Assembly (NCBI RefSeq): GCF_010723305.1
Contig: NZ_BLKW01000004.1
Coordinates: 682,001-746,000 of the forward strand
DNA: 64,000 nucleotides
Source: Mycobacterium botniense
GTDB taxonomy: Bacteria; Actinomycetota; Actinomycetes; Mycobacteriales; Mycobacteriaceae
Direction: 5' to 3'
Made by a program: the position numbers and the translations under genes. Under the pieces are notes generated by a model. The model searched no databases. It saw nothing but the letters and a program-made list of their open reading frames with translations, and was not told where the DNA came from. This document shows, piece by piece, positions 32,194 to 38,843 of this stretch. The number at the start of each line of letters is the position of its first letter. Position 1 is the first letter of the stretch.

Positions 32194-32455
32194 TATCGCG
32201 TGACCGTCGATTCCTCGCCCACGGACGGGCGCCAGTCAACATCTTCTGTTAGGCTTCGCGCCATGCACGCAGCGTCCGGCAACCGGCAGTGCCACGTTCT
32301 GGCGCTCATTGCCGTGGGTAATTGTGCTGTGGCTGACGTGCACTGTCACCGCTGAACCCAGCCTGCGATTTTGGTGTCGGTCAAACACTGCTAGGTAGCG
32401 CTTGTGCGCGCTGCCGTCGCACCGGGACCGACATCTCCCCGGTGAAAGGTCACCC

Positions 32456-33493
32456 ATGCCCAACAATGTTGCGAGCAGAGTCCGCTGGAGGCAGACTGTC
32501 GCGTTCGCGCTGACAGCAGGTCTTGCCGCGGCGTGTCATGCCGGCGCCAGCGACATGGTCGGTGGCCGCAGTCCGGCCGGAACGCGCACAAGCATCACCT
32601 TGGTTGCCTACTCGGCTCCAGAACCTGGATGGAGCAAGGTGATTCCCGCGTTCAACGCTTCCCGGCAGGGCAGAGATGTTCAGGTGATCACTTCTTATGG
32701 GGCCTCCGCCGACCAGTCCCGCAGTATCGTAGACGGTAAGCCGGCCGATATCGTGAACTTCTCGTCGGCACCTGATGTCAGCCGATTAGTGAAGGCCGGC
32801 AAGGTTTCCAAAGACTGGGATAAGGACGCCACCAAAGGCATCCCTTTCGGCTCCGTTGTGAGTTTGATGGTGCGTGCTGGCAATCCGAAACATATCAAGG
32901 ATTGGGATGACCTGCTGCGTCCGGGGGTGGAGGTCATCACGCCCAGTCCACTGAGTTCCGGCTCGGCCAAGTGGAACCTGCTCGCCCCCTATGCCGCCAA
33001 GAGCAATGGCGGCCAGAATCGCCAAGCCGGTTTAGAATTCGTCGACGAGTTGGTGAGCCAGCATGTCAAACTCCGTCCCGGATCTGGCCGCGAAGCCACC
33101 GATGTTTTCATCGAGGGCCGAGGCGACGTGCTGATCAGCTATGAAAACGAAGCCATTGCCACCGAGCGCCAGGGCAGGCCGGTGCAACACATTAACCCGC
33201 CGCAGACGTTCAAGATCGAAAACCCGGTCGCCGTTGTTAACACCAGCGCTCATCTCGGCGCCGCCGTCGCATTCAAAAACTTTCAATACACCGTCGAAGC
33301 TCAAAAACTTTGGGCACAAGCTGGTTTCCGACCTGTCGATCCTGCGGTGGCAGCCGATTTCCGCGACCAGTTCCCGACGCCGGGTAAATTGTGGACGATA
33401 GCCGACCTGGGCGGCTGGGATGCTGTCGATCCACAACTGTTCGACAAAAATACCGGTGCTATCACCAAAATCTATATGCGCGCGACCGGATGA
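32456..33493 (+). CDS. subI: Sulfate-binding lipoprotein of ABC importer
   Basis: This is the substrate-binding component that delivers sulfate or thiosulfate to the CysTWA transporter. The 345-aa protein has a signal sequence (VRWRQTVAFALTAGLAAAC) with a lipobox-like Cys, then a type II periplasmic-binding fold with family motifs SYGASADQSRSIVDGKPADIV, TPSPLSSGSAKWNL and VLISYENEAI. Translation starts at ATG 32456 after AAAGG. Its stop overlaps the cysT start (ATGA), opening a four-gene operon. Confidence 0.94.
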   Translation: MPNNVASRVRWRQTVAFALTAGLAAACHAGASDMVGGRSPAGTRTSITLVAYSAPEPGWSKVIPAFNASRQGRDVQVITSYGASADQSRSIVDGKPADIVNFSSAPDVSRLVKAGKVSKDWDKDATKGIPFGSVVSLMVRAGNPKHIKDWDDLLRPGVEVITPSPLSSGSAKWNLLAPYAAKSNGGQNRQAGLEFVDELVSQHVKLRPGSGREATDVFIEGRGDVLISYENEAIATERQGRPVQHINPPQTFKIENPVAVVNTSAHLGAAVAFKNFQYTVEAQKLWAQAGFRPVDPAVAADFRDQFPTPGKLWTIADLGGWDAVDPQLFDKNTGAITKIYMRATG

Positions 33494-34365
33494 CGATGGC
33501 ACTCATTCCCGATCCGGACACAAGCCGGCCGCGAGTCAACCATCGGGTCCGGTGGCGGGCCTCGGTGCGCATGGGCCACCGCAGCACATGCCTGTTGGTC
33601 GGCGCTGCAATGGTGTGGATTTCAGTGATCGTGCTGCTACCACTGGCCGCGGTCAGCTGGCAGGCCGCCAGCGGTGGCTGGCAGGCGTTTTGGTTCGCGG
33701 TCACGTCGCACGCCGCTTTGGCGTCTTTCCGGGTGACACTGACCCTGGCTACCGCCGTCACCGCGATCAACACGGTTTTCGGTCTGCTGATCGCATGGGT
33801 ACTGGTGCGAGACGACTTTGCTGGCAAGCGCCTGATCGATGCTGTCATCGATCTGCCGTTCGCGCTGCCCACCATCGTTGCCAGCGTGGTGATGCTGGCG
33901 CTGTACGGTCCCAATAGCCCAGTGGGTCTTCACTTTCAGCACACCGAAATGGGTGTTGGGGTAGTGCTGGCATTCGTCACATTGCCGTTTGTGGTGCGGT
34001 CCGTGCAGCCGGTGCTGCTCGAGATCGACCGGGAGACCGAAGAGGCAGCCGCGTTATTGGGGGCGGGCAGCCTGACGATTTTCACCGCCGTCGTGTTGCC
34101 ATCGCTGACTCCGGCGTTGTTATCAGGTGCTGGCCTGGCTTTCTCACGCGCCATCGGCGAGTTCGGATCCGTCGTACTGATCGGTGGGGCGATTCCGGGG
34201 AAGACTGAAGTGTCTTCGCAGTGGATCCGCACTCTGGTCGAGAACGATGACCGCAGCGGTGCTGCTGCGATATCGATTGTTCTGCTGTCGATGTCGTTCA
34301 CAGTACTTTTCATTCTGCGCATTGTCGGTGCACGCGCGGCTAGACGTCAGGAGATGGCCACGTGA
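33490..34365 (+). CDS. cysT: Sulfate ABC transporter permease
   Basis: This 291-aa inner-membrane permease of the sulfate/thiosulfate importer has six hydrophobic segments. The cytoplasmic EAA loop, which contacts the ATPase, is present as EETEEAAALLGAGSLTIFTAVVLP (Glu-Ala-Ala core). Four-base overlaps link it to subI upstream and cysW downstream. The N-terminal tail of about 40 residues before the first helix is hydrophilic and basic. Confidence 0.93.
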   Translation: MTMALIPDPDTSRPRVNHRVRWRASVRMGHRSTCLLVGAAMVWISVIVLLPLAAVSWQAASGGWQAFWFAVTSHAALASFRVTLTLATAVTAINTVFGLLIAWVLVRDDFAGKRLIDAVIDLPFALPTIVASVVMLALYGPNSPVGLHFQHTEMGVGVVLAFVTLPFVVRSVQPVLLEIDRETEEAAALLGAGSLTIFTAVVLPSLTPALLSGAGLAFSRAIGEFGSVVLIGGAIPGKTEVSSQWIRTLVENDDRSGAAAISIVLLSMSFTVLFILRIVGARAARRQEMAT

Positions 34366-35189
34366 CACTCTCACCGATGATCCGCTTCTTCATCAGATTC
34401 GTAGGAGTGTTGTACATTCTCGCACTGCTGATCATTCCGGTTCTGCTGATTTTGTGGCGGACCTTCGCGCCCGGATTATCTCAGTTCTTTGCCTACGTCA
34501 GTACTCCTGCCGCAGTGGCGGCTTTGCGCTTATCGTTGCTTGTTTTGGCCATCGTGCTACCGCTGAACGTGGTCTTCGGTGTCGTGGTGGCGCTGGTTCT
34601 GGCGCGTCGCAGATTCCTCGGTAAAGGCGTGCTGCAGACGATTATCGATCTGCCTTTCGCGGTGTCGCCCGTGATCGTCGGCGTCGCACTGATCGCGTTG
34701 TGGGGATCGGCCGGAGCTTTGGGCTTTGTCGAGAGAGACCTCGGGTTCAGGGTCATCTTCGGGCTGCCCGGTATCGTGCTCGCCAGCGTTTTTGTCACGC
34801 TGCCGTTCGTGGTGCGCGAAGTCGAACCGGTCCTGCAGGAGCTGGGAACAGATCAGGAGCAGGCGGCGGCGACACTGGGTTGTGGTGTGTGGCAGACGTT
34901 CTGGCGGGTGACGCTGCCATCAATTCGATGGGGGCTCACATACGGCGTGGTGCTCACCAGCGCGCGCACGCTCGGGGAATACGGGGCGGTGATCATGGTG
35001 TCCTCCAACTTGCCGGGAAAGTCGCAGACGTTGACTCTGCTGGTCTCGGATCGCTACAACCGCGGGGCTGAATACGGCGCCTATGCTCTGTCGACGTTGT
35101 TGATGGGGGTCTCGATGCTGGTGCTGGTCGTACAGGTGTTTTTTGACGCCCGACGTGTGCGCAAGGATGTGCGCAAGGAGATGGCATGA
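34362..35189 (+). CDS. cysW: Sulfate ABC transporter permease
   Basis: This 275-aa second permease pairs with CysT. It has six predicted helices and the EAA loop [23 protein letters not shown], followed by [29 protein letters not shown], typical of CysW. It starts at GTG overlapping the cysT stop and overlaps the cysA ATG by four bases. Confidence 0.93.
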
Positions 35190-36241
35190 ACCCGACCGAC
35201 GCGATCATCGTTGCCGGTGTCTCTAAGCGTTACGGAGATTTTGTTGCACTAGACGATATCGACTTCTCGGTGCCCGCCGGTTCGCTCACGGCGTTGCTGG
35301 GGCCCAGTGGTTCAGGTAAGTCGACGCTGTTGCGTGCCATTGCTGGCCTCGATCGGCCCGACACCGGCAGCATTGTTATCAACGGACGTGACGTGACCGG
35401 TGTGTCACCCCAGCGGCGTGGAGTCGGCTTCGTGTTCCAACACTATGCGGCATTCAAACACTTGACTGTGCGCGACAACATCGCTTTCGGGTTAAAGATC
35501 CGCAGACGGTCCAAAGCCGAGATCAAAGAGAAAGTCGATAACCTGCTGGAAGTGGTCGGGCTGAGCGGATTTCAAACTCGCTACCCCCATCAGTTGTCCG
35601 GTGGGCAACGACAGCGCATGGCGCTGGCGCGCGCGCTGGCCGTGGACCCGGACGTGTTGCTCTTGGATGAGCCGTTCGGCGCGCTGGACGCCAAAGTCCG
35701 CGACGAGTTGCGCGCCTGGCTGCGTCGCTTGCACGACGAGGCGCATGTGACCACGGTGCTGGTCACTCACGATCAAGGGGAGGCCCTGGATGTGGCTGAC
35801 CGGATCGCCGTGCTCAATAAGGGCCGCATCGAGCAGATCGGATCCCCAGCAACGGTCTACGACAACCCGGCGAACACTTTCGTGATGTCATTTTTGGGTG
35901 CGGTATCGACACTGAACGGAACCTTGGTTCGCCCGCACGATATCCGGGTCGGTCGCACACCTGATATGGCGGTTGCCGCCCGGGACGGCACGGCGCAATC
36001 TGCCGGCGTACAGCGCGCCACCGTCAACCGCGTGGTGATGCTGGGATTTGAAGTCCGCGTCGAGTTGACCAGCGCGGCCACCGGTGTCCCGTTCACCGCG
36101 CAGATCACCCGCGGCGACGCTGAGGCGCTTGCCCTGCGCGAAGGCGACACCGTTTACGTGCGTGCTACCCGTGTGCCGCCTATTGGCGGCGACGTTATGG
36201 CCCGTCACGGTCCGAACACCGAGAGGATGCGAGCACAGTGA
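35186..36241 (+). CDS. cysA: Sulfate ABC transporter ATPase
   Basis: This 351-aa ATPase powers the sulfate importer. Walker [10 protein letters not shown] (about residue 40), Q-loop VFQHYAAF, signature [16 protein letters not shown], Walker [12 protein letters not shown] and the switch His in [10 protein letters not shown] are all intact. A C-terminal TOBE-like regulatory domain follows (about 240-345). It is the last gene of the subI-cysT-cysW-cysA operon and converges with the siroheme-chelatase/nirA operon after about 110 bp. Confidence 0.95.
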
Positions 36242-36349: not shown

Positions 36350-37075
36350 TCACGCCGCCATGTGACCGGCCACCGCACGGTCGAAGCGATCCAGCACAGT
36401 CTCAGCAACTAACCGGTGGGCACCTAACGGGGGTGCCATCGCGATGCCGGCGTCGCGTGCAAACGCCTGCACCCGGTCGGGTAGCCTCCCCGGCGCCAGG
36501 AACCACGGGGCGATCACCAGTCGGCGCATGCCTAGCTGGCGCAGCCGATGAGCCGCCGTTGCCAGCGAACCGGGCACGGTGACGAACGCGGTGGTCGCCC
36601 CTGCCCAACGGGTTCCGGCCGACAGCTTCGATGCGACCTGCGCGGTGCGCGCGTTGACTGCGGCATCCGAGGAGCCGATTGCCACCACCAGCACGCCAAG
36701 CGCATCGTCGGCCGGAGAAACGCCCATGCCGGCCAGCCGCTCCCGCAATACACACACCAAACGGCCGTCGGCCCCGAGCACCGGAGCGCGCCGTACGCTG
36801 ATTCCGCGCTCTGTCGCACCCGAACGAGCAATGTGTTCGGGAATGTCACGGCGGGCGTGGTAGGCGTCAGCCAACAGCAGCGGAGTGACCACAACATAAC
36901 GCGTTCCCCGCAACCCGGCGAGGACGTCGACCAAGCCCGGCGGGTTCTTGTCCAAGTAGGCGAGACGCAGGTCAAGACCCGGCCGCAGGTCTTTCAGCAA
37001 ATCGGCCACCGCCCGGGTGGTGGCGGCCGATCGCGGATCTGCGCTGCCATGTGCGGTCAGCACCATCGTGGTCAC
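36350..37075 (-). CDS. Sirohydrochlorin ferrochelatase-like protein (CbiX/SirB family)
   Basis: Proteins of this family insert Fe2+ into sirohydrochlorin to make sirohaem, the cofactor of the sulfite reductase encoded upstream. The 241-aa protein has two CbiX-type halves; the first starts VLTAHGSADPRSAATTRAV with the metal-binding His, and a second conserved His is in DAYHARRDIP. The GTG start overlaps the stop of the cysH relic, which keeps the coupling of the nirA-cysH-chelatase operon known from M. tuberculosis (Rv2391-Rv2393). Confidence 0.85.
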   Translation of the reverse strand: MTTMVLTAHGSADPRSAATTRAVADLLKDLRPGLDLRLAYLDKNPPGLVDVLAGLRGTRYVVVTPLLLADAYHARRDIPEHIARSGATERGISVRRAPVLGADGRLVCVLRERLAGMGVSPADDALGVLVVAIGSSDAAVNARTAQVASKLSAGTRWAGATTAFVTVPGSLATAAHRLRQLGMRRLVIAPWFLAPGRLPDRVQAFARDAGIAMAPPLGAHRLVAETVLDRFDRAVAGHMAA

Positions 37076-37182
37076 AAGGGGTGCAACCCGCCTTCCGTTT
37101 TAGACCGTTCCCGCCAGCGCCCGCTGCGCGCCGCCACCTTCCGGGGGTGTTGTTCGGTCCAGCCGTTGGTCTGGCCGCTCAA
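37072..37182 (-). pseudogene. cysH: cysH (APS reductase) relic with large in-frame internal deletion
   Basis: Between nirA and the chelatase gene lies a leftward 36-codon ORF starting with TTG. Its first residues LSGQTNGWTE resemble the start of mycobacterial CysH (MSGETTRLTE, from memory) and its end RSGRWRERSKTEGGLHPL resembles the CysH C-terminus (GRWQGLAKTECGLH). About 215 codons of the 254-residue protein, including the iron-sulfur cluster cysteines, are gone. The catalytic Cys of the ECGLH motif reads Gly. Both operon junctions survive: the TTG overlaps the nirA stop and the TGA overlaps the next GTG. An active enzyme is impossible. Confidence 0.82.
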
Positions 37183-38843
37183 CGGAGATCGTCCTCGTCA
37201 GCGCGCATTACCCACTGCGCAAACCGAGCGCCGTCATTACGGTGCTTGAGAAAGTTCCGCACCAGCCGCTCGATGTAATCGCCGAGCTCGTGGCTGTGCA
37301 CCTTGTGCTGGCGCAACTTACGGCCGAAACCGCTGTCGGCGCCGAGGCTGCCGCCGAGATGCACCTGAAAACCTTCGACCGAACCGCCGTGACCGTCGTC
37401 GACCATCTGGCCCTTGAATCCGATGTCGGCGATCTGGATTCGAGCACACGAGTTAGGGCAGCCGTTGATGTTTATCGTGATCGGCACGTCGAGCTGGGCA
37501 TTGACCTCCTCGAGCCGCTTCTCCAGTTCGGGTACCAAAGCTTGTGCACGGCATCGGGTTTCGGCAAACGACAACTTGCAGAATTCGATACCGGTGCAGG
37601 CCATCACGTTTCGACGCCAGTGCGACGGCCGCGACGGCAACCCGAGGGCGTCCAGTTCGGCGACCATGCGGTCCACGTGGTCATCGGGCACGTCGAGGAT
37701 GATCAGTTTCTGGTACGGGGTGAACCGGACGCGGTTAGACCCGGCTTGTTCAGCCAGTTCCGCCACTTTGGTCAGGATGGTGCCTGAGACTCGCCCGGCA
37801 ATTGGTGCAACCCCGATGGCATTGCGGCCGTTCTTGAGGCGCTGCACGCCGACGTGGTCGATCGGATGGATCACCGGAGGCGGCGGGGGACCGTCGATCA
37901 GCGGCCGCTTGAGGTACTCGGTTTCGAGGACGTGGCGGAATTTCTCGACCCCCCAATCCTTGATCAGGAATTTCATCCGCGCCTTGGACCGCAGCCGCCG
38001 ATAGCCGTAGTCGCGGAATACCGACGTCACGCCGGCCCAGACCTCGGGGACCTCCTCCAGCGGCACCCAGGCGCCCACGCGCTGCGCCAGCATCGGGTTG
38101 GTCGACAGGCCGCCTCCCACCCACAGATCCAGCCCGGGCCCGTGGTCGGGATGGTTGACGCCGATGAACGCTACGTCGTTGATCTCGTGCGCGACATCCT
38201 GCAGACCCGAGATCGCGGTCTTGTACTTGCGCGGCAGGTCGGCGAAGTCGGGTGTGCCGATATAGCGGCGCACGATCTCGTTGATCGCCCACGTCGGGTC
38301 GATCACCTCCTGGAGTGACTCACCGGCCAGCGGTGAGCCCAGGATCACCCGCGGACAGTCGCCGCAGGCTTCGGTGGTCTGCAAGCCGACTGCGTCCAGC
38401 CGTCGCCAGATCTCCGGTACGTTTTCCACCTCGACCCAGTGCATCTGCAGGTTCTCGCGGTCGGAGATGTCGGCGGTATTGCGCGCGAACTCCACCGAAA
38501 TCTCACCCAAGGTGCGCAGCGCGGTGGTGGACAACGCGCCACCGTCGCAGCGCACCCGCATCATGAAATAGCGCGACTCCAAAACGTCGATGTTCTCGTC
38601 ACCGGTCCAGCTGCCGTCATAACCCTGCTCACGCTGGGTGTAGAGACCCCACCAGCGGAAGCGTCCGCGCAAGTCGGTCTTCTCGATGCTGTCCCAGCCT
38701 TGTTTGGCATAGGTGTTTTCGATGCGCTCCCGCACGTCGAGGGTTCCGTGCTTCTTGAGCTCTTCGGTCGGATTGAGCGGCTCGCGCTCCCCGAGCGCCC
38801 ATTGACCTTCACTGCGGGTCTTGGTGGGACGGGCTGTCGTCAT
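37179..38843 (-). CDS. nirA: Ferredoxin-dependent sulfite reductase
   Basis: NirA reduces sulfite to sulfide with six electrons from ferredoxin, using sirohaem and a [4Fe-4S] cluster. The 554-aa protein has the cluster cysteines in NVMACTGIEFCKLSFAETR and NGCPNSCAR. The Tyr (GLYTQREQGYDGSW) and Cys (TTEACGDCPR) that are cross-linked in the M. tuberculosis enzyme are also present. AGGAG before ATG 38843 sets the start; an upstream in-frame ATG at 38933 adds 30 residues and is less likely. The protein looks intact although the cysH gene that should feed it is deleted next door. Confidence 0.95.
   Translation of the reverse strand: MTTARPTKTRSEGQWALGEREPLNPTEELKKHGTLDVRERIENTYAKQGWDSIEKTDLRGRFRWWGLYTQREQGYDGSWTGDENIDVLESRYFMMRVRCDGGALSTTALRTLGEISVEFARNTADISDRENLQMHWVEVENVPEIWRRLDAVGLQTTEACGDCPRVILGSPLAGESLQEVIDPTWAINEIVRRYIGTPDFADLPRKYKTAISGLQDVAHEINDVAFIGVNHPDHGPGLDLWVGGGLSTNPMLAQRVGAWVPLEEVPEVWAGVTSVFRDYGYRRLRSKARMKFLIKDWGVEKFRHVLETEYLKRPLIDGPPPPPVIHPIDHVGVQRLKNGRNAIGVAPIAGRVSGTILTKVAELAEQAGSNRVRFTPYQKLIILDVPDDHVDRMVAELDALGLPSRPSHWRRNVMACTGIEFCKLSFAETRCRAQALVPELEKRLEEVNAQLDVPITININGCPNSCARIQIADIGFKGQMVDDGHGGSVEGFQVHLGGSLGADSGFGRKLRQHKVHSHELGDYIERLVRNFLKHRNDGARFAQWVMRADEDDLR

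Follow-up and report, generated by a model that had tools for sequence, protein, structure and literature searches.

A decayed cysH remnant in a canonical mycobacterial sulfite reduction operon, with further cysH loci and a Sat-CysC-CysQ cassette elsewhere in the genome

Judged from its sequence, the canonical cysH of this mycobacterial genome is genuinely reduced to a decayed in-frame stub of 36 codons. We regard it, with a probability of about 0.77, as a dead gene made redundant by paralogous LysR-linked operons, in a genome that has also acquired a sulfate-activation cassette whose Sat-CysC is probably related to that of Patescibacteria. Seen at this locus alone, the stub points to sulfur auxotrophy; seen genome-wide, it would mark a rebuilt pathway, and it warns that one locus alone is a poor basis for inferring loss of function. 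What was observed directly is which genes are present, their motifs, the deletions and how the sequences are related. The genome (4.335 Mb, 99.82% complete) consists of 4 contigs, and the window, the whole stretch of 64,000 nucleotides analyzed, is C4:682001-746000. The following features of the window were considered.

32402..33493, (+), subI-like solute-binding protein (PF13531); ORF as listed, true start maybe downstream
33391..34365, (+), cysT-like permease (PF00528); ORF as listed, true start maybe downstream
34362..35189, (+), cysW-like permease (PF00528)
35186..36241, (+), cysA-like sulfate ABC transporter ATPase (PF00005)
36350..37075, (-), che1, CbiX-type chelatase, canonical copy, open (PF01903, E 6.5e-29)
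37072..37182, (-), cysH relic, 36-codon in-frame ORF (translation and alignment)
37179..38843, (-), nirA, siroheme sulfite/nitrite reductase, canonical copy (PF01077/PF03460; PDB 1zj8, 1113.6 bits)

The window has the gene order and the overlapping genes of the canonical mycobacterial nirA(sirA)-cysH-che1 operon beside subI-cysTWA, with nirA and che1 open; the difference is that the canonical operon has a full cysH, whereas in the window cysH is cut to 36 codons. We take the M. tuberculosis equivalents to be Rv2391-Rv2393 (nirA(sirA)-cysH-che1) and Rv2397c-Rv2400c (subI-cysTWA), and the names cysW, cysT and subI are our assignments from gene order. Many relatives also have the cysA-like gene beside their nirA-cysH(-che1) locus.

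The relic was translated as LSGQTNGWTEQHPRKVAARSGRWRERSKTEGGLHPL (36 aa). It sits exactly between the end of nirA (37179) and the GTG start of che1 (37075), overlapping the nirA stop in TTGA and the che1 start in GTGA. An earlier note on this DNA had described cysH as an in-frame 36-codon relic in an otherwise intact operon with both of these overlaps, and the ORF, the coordinates and the alignment with CysH bear this out. The note had divided the relic into the first ten and the last eighteen residues of CysH; the alignment instead gave about 19 N-terminal and 17 C-terminal residues. When the two halves were aligned with 15 orthologs, the 3' half scored 59, a score that none of 1000 shuffles reached (top shuffle 40). 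The 5' half scored a weak 36, which 9 of 1000 shuffles reached (top shuffle 42), and it was assigned to CysH also because of its position and its AAR motif. The alignment with CysH of relatives that the note had proposed thus went beyond chance for one end and was weak for the other. Taken together, remnant homology and synteny identify the relic as a former cysH.

For the C-terminal comparison, 79 proteins of relatives were assembled; the 76 with SGRW at the compared position were counted and 3 were left out. Of the 17 C-terminal residues of the relic, 10 agreed with the consensus of the orthologs, whereas the orthologs counted scored 13-17. Two residues changed in the relic are invariant in 76/76 orthologs. 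One of them is the cysteine of ECGLH, which reads EGGLH in the relic, so the replacement of the catalytic Cys by Gly that the note had pointed out is correct. Differences of the relic from the nucleotide consensus were spread evenly over codon positions 1, 2 and 3 (4, 4 and 5; the orthologs average 1.4, 0.8 and 3.8), indicating that the relic has decayed and is no longer kept for its protein. It has none of the CysH catalytic core, and a Pfam search of its 36 aa returned no family at E 1 or better, PF01507 (PAPS_reduct) being absent.

In 12 relatives, full-length cysH encodes 246-247 residues counted from the overlapping start, indicating that about 210 codons have gone in frame. The inferred break point is flanked on both sides by CGCGC in relatives L003 and L004 and not in L008; it was read from these relatives. 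A microhomology-mediated deletion of cysH is possible.

The neighbors do not share this decay. Window nirA had a median dN of 0.114 and dS of 0.83 against 13 references, indicating purifying selection, and window che1 had a median dN of 0.272 and dS of 1.151, inside the range of its 13 references. With dN well below dS for both genes, decay of the whole window operon was ruled out. The window NirA does lie on a long tree branch (0.19, against a median end branch of 0.034), and window hemW is also fast (dN 0.183; references 0.108-0.195).

The earlier note had inferred a cell lacking the standard APS-to-sulfite step at this locus and had allowed for another reductase elsewhere. The second option agrees with the gene content. 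A PF01507 search of the genome gave two matches, both CysH by NCBIfam and both full length, and each gene adjoins its own nirA and a LysR gene.

C4 ~1,369,630-1,373,750, locus B, nirA1-cysH1-che1 and a LysR gene that points towards che1
C4 ~1,923,910-1,927,550, locus C, nirA2-cysH2 and a LysR gene that points towards cysH2

APS reductases are marked by the cysteines of CC and CxxC and by ECGLH. CysH1 of locus B (247 aa from an ATG overlapping the nirA1 stop) has all of these motifs and passes the APS-reductase model TIGR02055 with 249.3 bits against a cut-off of 235.3. In CysH2 of locus C (L002 1369-2088 / L121 7607-8326), CC is present and CxxC reads CQPM. The final position of CxxC is C in 112 of 115 rows; the two rows with M are cysH2 itself, and one row is off pattern. 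As CysH2 also stayed under the TIGR02055 cut-off (217.8 vs 235.3 bits), its activity is doubtful. Compared with the mycobacterial-type CysH of PDB 7lhr (titled phosphoadenosine phosphosulfate reductase), CysH1 is alike (454.8 bits), whereas the stub is without the catalytic core and CysH2 has CxxM. The APS step may therefore rest on CysH1 alone, CysH2 being without one cluster cysteine. On present evidence, the stub would not leave the cell unable to reduce APS.

No che1 was found at locus C within the 16 kb taken. Beyond the LysR gene of locus B stands an oxidoreductase that matched Pfam Pyr_redox_2 only and that we read as fprA-like. In a NirA tree of 89 rows built with a quick method, the window copy fell in a 59-row clade (99), and the copies of loci B and C grouped apart from it, in a clade of 5 rows (99) that also holds the LysR-linked copies of L082, L084 and L086.

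Sulfate activation has changed as well. No CysD was found in the genome by PF01507 and the family cut-off, and a TIGR02034 search for CysN gave nothing above its cut-off. Compared with the corresponding region of G001, the carbonic anhydrase and Rrf2 flanks are kept (Pfam), with about 250 bp between the matched stretches, and the cysD, cysNC and thioesterase-superfamily genes between them are missing. CysD was above the cut-off in 378 of 396 genomes of the genus. Among the 18 genomes without it, five have a partial strong match (G005, G127, G187, G342 and G353), and six of the other 13 are at least 99% complete: this genome (G000), G099, G139, G189, G254 and G285. About 1.26 Mb from the relic, three genes stand in a row.

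C4:1981222-1982937 plus stop, Sat-CysC fusion (NF004040, 896.6 bits)
C4 ~1983037-1983828, CysQ (TIGR01331, 255.1 bits, above the cut-off of 228.8)
C4 ~1984079-1984618, Rrf2 paralog (L140 19080-19619), directly after sat-cysC-cysQ

Sat-CysC exceeded the NF004040 equivalog cut-off of 669 in a full-length match over residues 8-571 of 572 and scored 607.6 bits against PDB 2gks, a bifunctional sulfate adenylyltransferase/adenylylsulfate kinase. It is predicted to make both APS and PAPS. The G+C content of sat-cysC and cysQ is 54%, against 64.7% for the window, and their third-position G+C is 0.58-0.60, against 0.72-0.81 in five window genes. A PPE gene lies upstream of the cassette on the same contig, and genes for RNase HII, signal peptidase and tRNA (guanine-1)-methyltransferase lie downstream. 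These neighbors place the cassette in a mycobacterial setting. A chimeric assembly is unlikely.

The Rrf2 paralog and the canonical Rrf2 copy share 83% identity over 156 residues. An Rrf2 gene also stands after cysD-cysNC in G001, as it does after sat-cysC-cysQ here. A foreign origin of a separate low-G+C cysC in the same region (L140 6518-7234) was considered and found no support, its organism-named relatives among the best 120 being mycobacterial. CysQ and this separate CysC each form a single-member cluster on one contig, which argues against a species with many strains. The region also holds two similar transporter-like sequences that we read as NarK-like (L140 7739-9191 and 12369-14078). 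The first is split over two ORFs and is apparently a broken duplicate; Pfam gave no match for one NarK-like fragment.

The fusion was found in 1 of 396 genomes of the genus, this one, and the next best match was 35% identical. The CysD-less mycobacteria G285, G189 and G254 (at least 99% complete) also have a Sat-like match, but it is only about 32-35% identical to Sat-CysC. The nearest relatives of Sat-CysC, among the best 120 of 7998 scored, were 82% identical. Seven of these 120 carry organism names: one Kiritimatiella and six Patescibacteria, namely a Nomurabacteria MAG, four Saccharibacteria and one "Saccharimo...". In a tree of 70 rows (the query and 69 of the best 120), the query fell in a 14-row clade (SH-aLRT 93) that holds P0001, P0002 and P0003, of which P0001 and P0003 are named; a clade of 27 rows (98) encloses it. 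The remaining named Saccharibacteria are scattered farther away in the tree, and close relatives are labeled differently, one as Nomurabacteria and another as Saccharibacteria. The end branch of the query (0.25) is longer than those of the nearest rows.

For CysQ, the 13 nearest relatives (P0122-P0134) were 59-65% identical. Six of them lie on contigs of the same sizes as those of Sat-CysC relatives (37182, 59545, 34885, 176980, 4507 and 9754), an indirect sign that sat-cysC and cysQ are linked in the donor group. Among the best 120 CysQ relatives, those with organism names are Proteobacteria (51-55%), with no Patescibacteria, and by themselves these would not point to Patescibacteria.

We lean towards a donor among Patescibacteria of the kind living on mycolic-acid bacteria. 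The lineage would have taken up sat-cysC and cysQ as a cassette, given up CysD-CysNC and shifted APS reduction onto a paralogous LysR-linked operon, with cysH left as a scar. A cassette from some other source, for instance a deep class of actinobacteria or a bacterium that lives freely, is unlikely. Such a source would suit the small number of organism names on close Sat-CysC relatives, the Proteobacteria among named CysQ relatives, and the 21 of 395 other Actinomycetota genomes that match Sat-CysC at E 1e-100 or better with 41-65% identity. It fits less well with the best named Sat-CysC relatives being Patescibacteria at 82%, with the position of the query beside them in the tree, and with the shared contig sizes of the CysQ relatives.

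In PMC13293708, Saccharimonadia are described as favoring Actinomycetota hosts, and PMC12592800 gives 27 species of Mycolata genera as hosts of Ca. Mycosynbacter amalyticus. These host reports make contact between Patescibacteria and mycobacteria plausible. The word 'sulfate' does not occur in the main text of PMC12592800, which deals with Saccharimonadia metabolism. According to PMC12102498, the type IV secretion system of Patescibacteria is without key conjugation components, so it is not evidence of a transfer route. In a literature search with subscription journals mostly outside its coverage, none of the matches listed dealt with the relic or with mycobacteria receiving Sat-CysC by transfer. 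If the Patescibacteria donor holds, an episymbiont group would have supplied a core metabolic enzyme to one member of the group that hosts it, where this enzyme apparently replaces a step conserved enough for CysD to be kept in nearly all genomes of the genus.

The order of events, the donor, the deletion mechanism and all enzyme activities in our preferred reading are what we infer from sequence. By gain or duplication, the lineage would have come to hold the LysR-linked nirA-cysH-che1 of locus B and the shorter nirA-cysH beside a LysR gene of locus C. These extra copies would have made the canonical cysH redundant and led to the internal deletion, while the canonical nirA and che1 stayed under purifying selection. 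The same lineage would have lost the canonical cysD-cysNC, activation passing to Sat-CysC and CysQ. The cysH deletion may have come before or after the arrival of the other cysH copies. In the predicted route, the ABC transporter of the window imports sulfate, Sat-CysC makes APS and PAPS, CysH1 would reduce APS to sulfite, and the NirA copies would reduce sulfite to sulfide. In M. tuberculosis, PMC3141025 assigns the corresponding steps to CysD/CysNC, CysH and SirA.

Loss of cysH beside nirA is rare. Among the best 80 of 419 loci found, cysH adjoins nirA in 79; the sole exception is the LysR-linked paralogous locus L082 of a MAG (Mycobacterium sp. Bu41). Of 198 genomes, 196 gave a nirA match. 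For the best of these matches we took 30 loci, one being the window itself, and cysH was present in 29/29 loci of relatives. The 80-locus and 29-locus sets may share species. At L082 (4601-4800), an in-frame excision has cut cysH itself down to 24 codons, which lie between nirA and che1 and have ATGA at either end.

The earlier note had suggested that selection to keep polarity of the operon explained the clean in-frame deletion. We consider it quite improbable that selection keeps the 36-codon frame, whether for translational coupling or for a small peptide. The relic is in frame and stop-free with both overlaps retained, and the excision at L082 is a second in-frame case that kept both of its overlaps. 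However, both overlaps can persist without selection acting on the relic, since the TGA of TTGA is the nirA stop and the GTG of GTGA is the che1 start, and one deletion in three stays in frame by chance. We also modeled stop-free survival in a simple way at about 25% divergence, with or without indels. Without indels, the chance of no stop in the relic was 0.31-0.41, whereas with an assumed 0.1 indel per substitution it fell to 0.02. If indels are common, the open frame is thus a little surprising, and a weak constraint on the frame is conceivable. Against selection on the product, judged from one strain, residues invariant in the orthologs are altered and an excess of third-position differences is absent. 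In-frame retention is no proof of selection for polarity.

Loss of assimilatory sulfate reduction, with dependence on organic or reduced sulfur, is very improbable. It would agree with the stub, with the missing canonical cysD-cysNC and with CxxM in place of CxxC in CysH2. Against it stand CysH1, full length with its motifs, Sat-CysC and CysQ, both full length and above family cut-offs, and the transporter genes, nirA and che1, which are open with the expected domains. That an assembly or sequencing error conceals a full cysH is a general possibility that we give almost no weight, as conserved sites of the relic are substituted, an outcome not expected of a collapsed assembly, and as the genome is this complete and on so few contigs.

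Two further arrangements were seen among the relatives. In G002, a single contig of 4.0 Mb, CysH (L119 4690-5319) has 22 residues missing in frame, including the TRANAP segment, and no further CysH was among the matches listed; this genome is a candidate for a real loss of APS reduction. In G001 and G036, the canonical loci (L144 and L145) have nirA-cysH beside cysTWA without che1, and the LysR-linked copies (L084 and L086) carry che1, the opposite division of genes.
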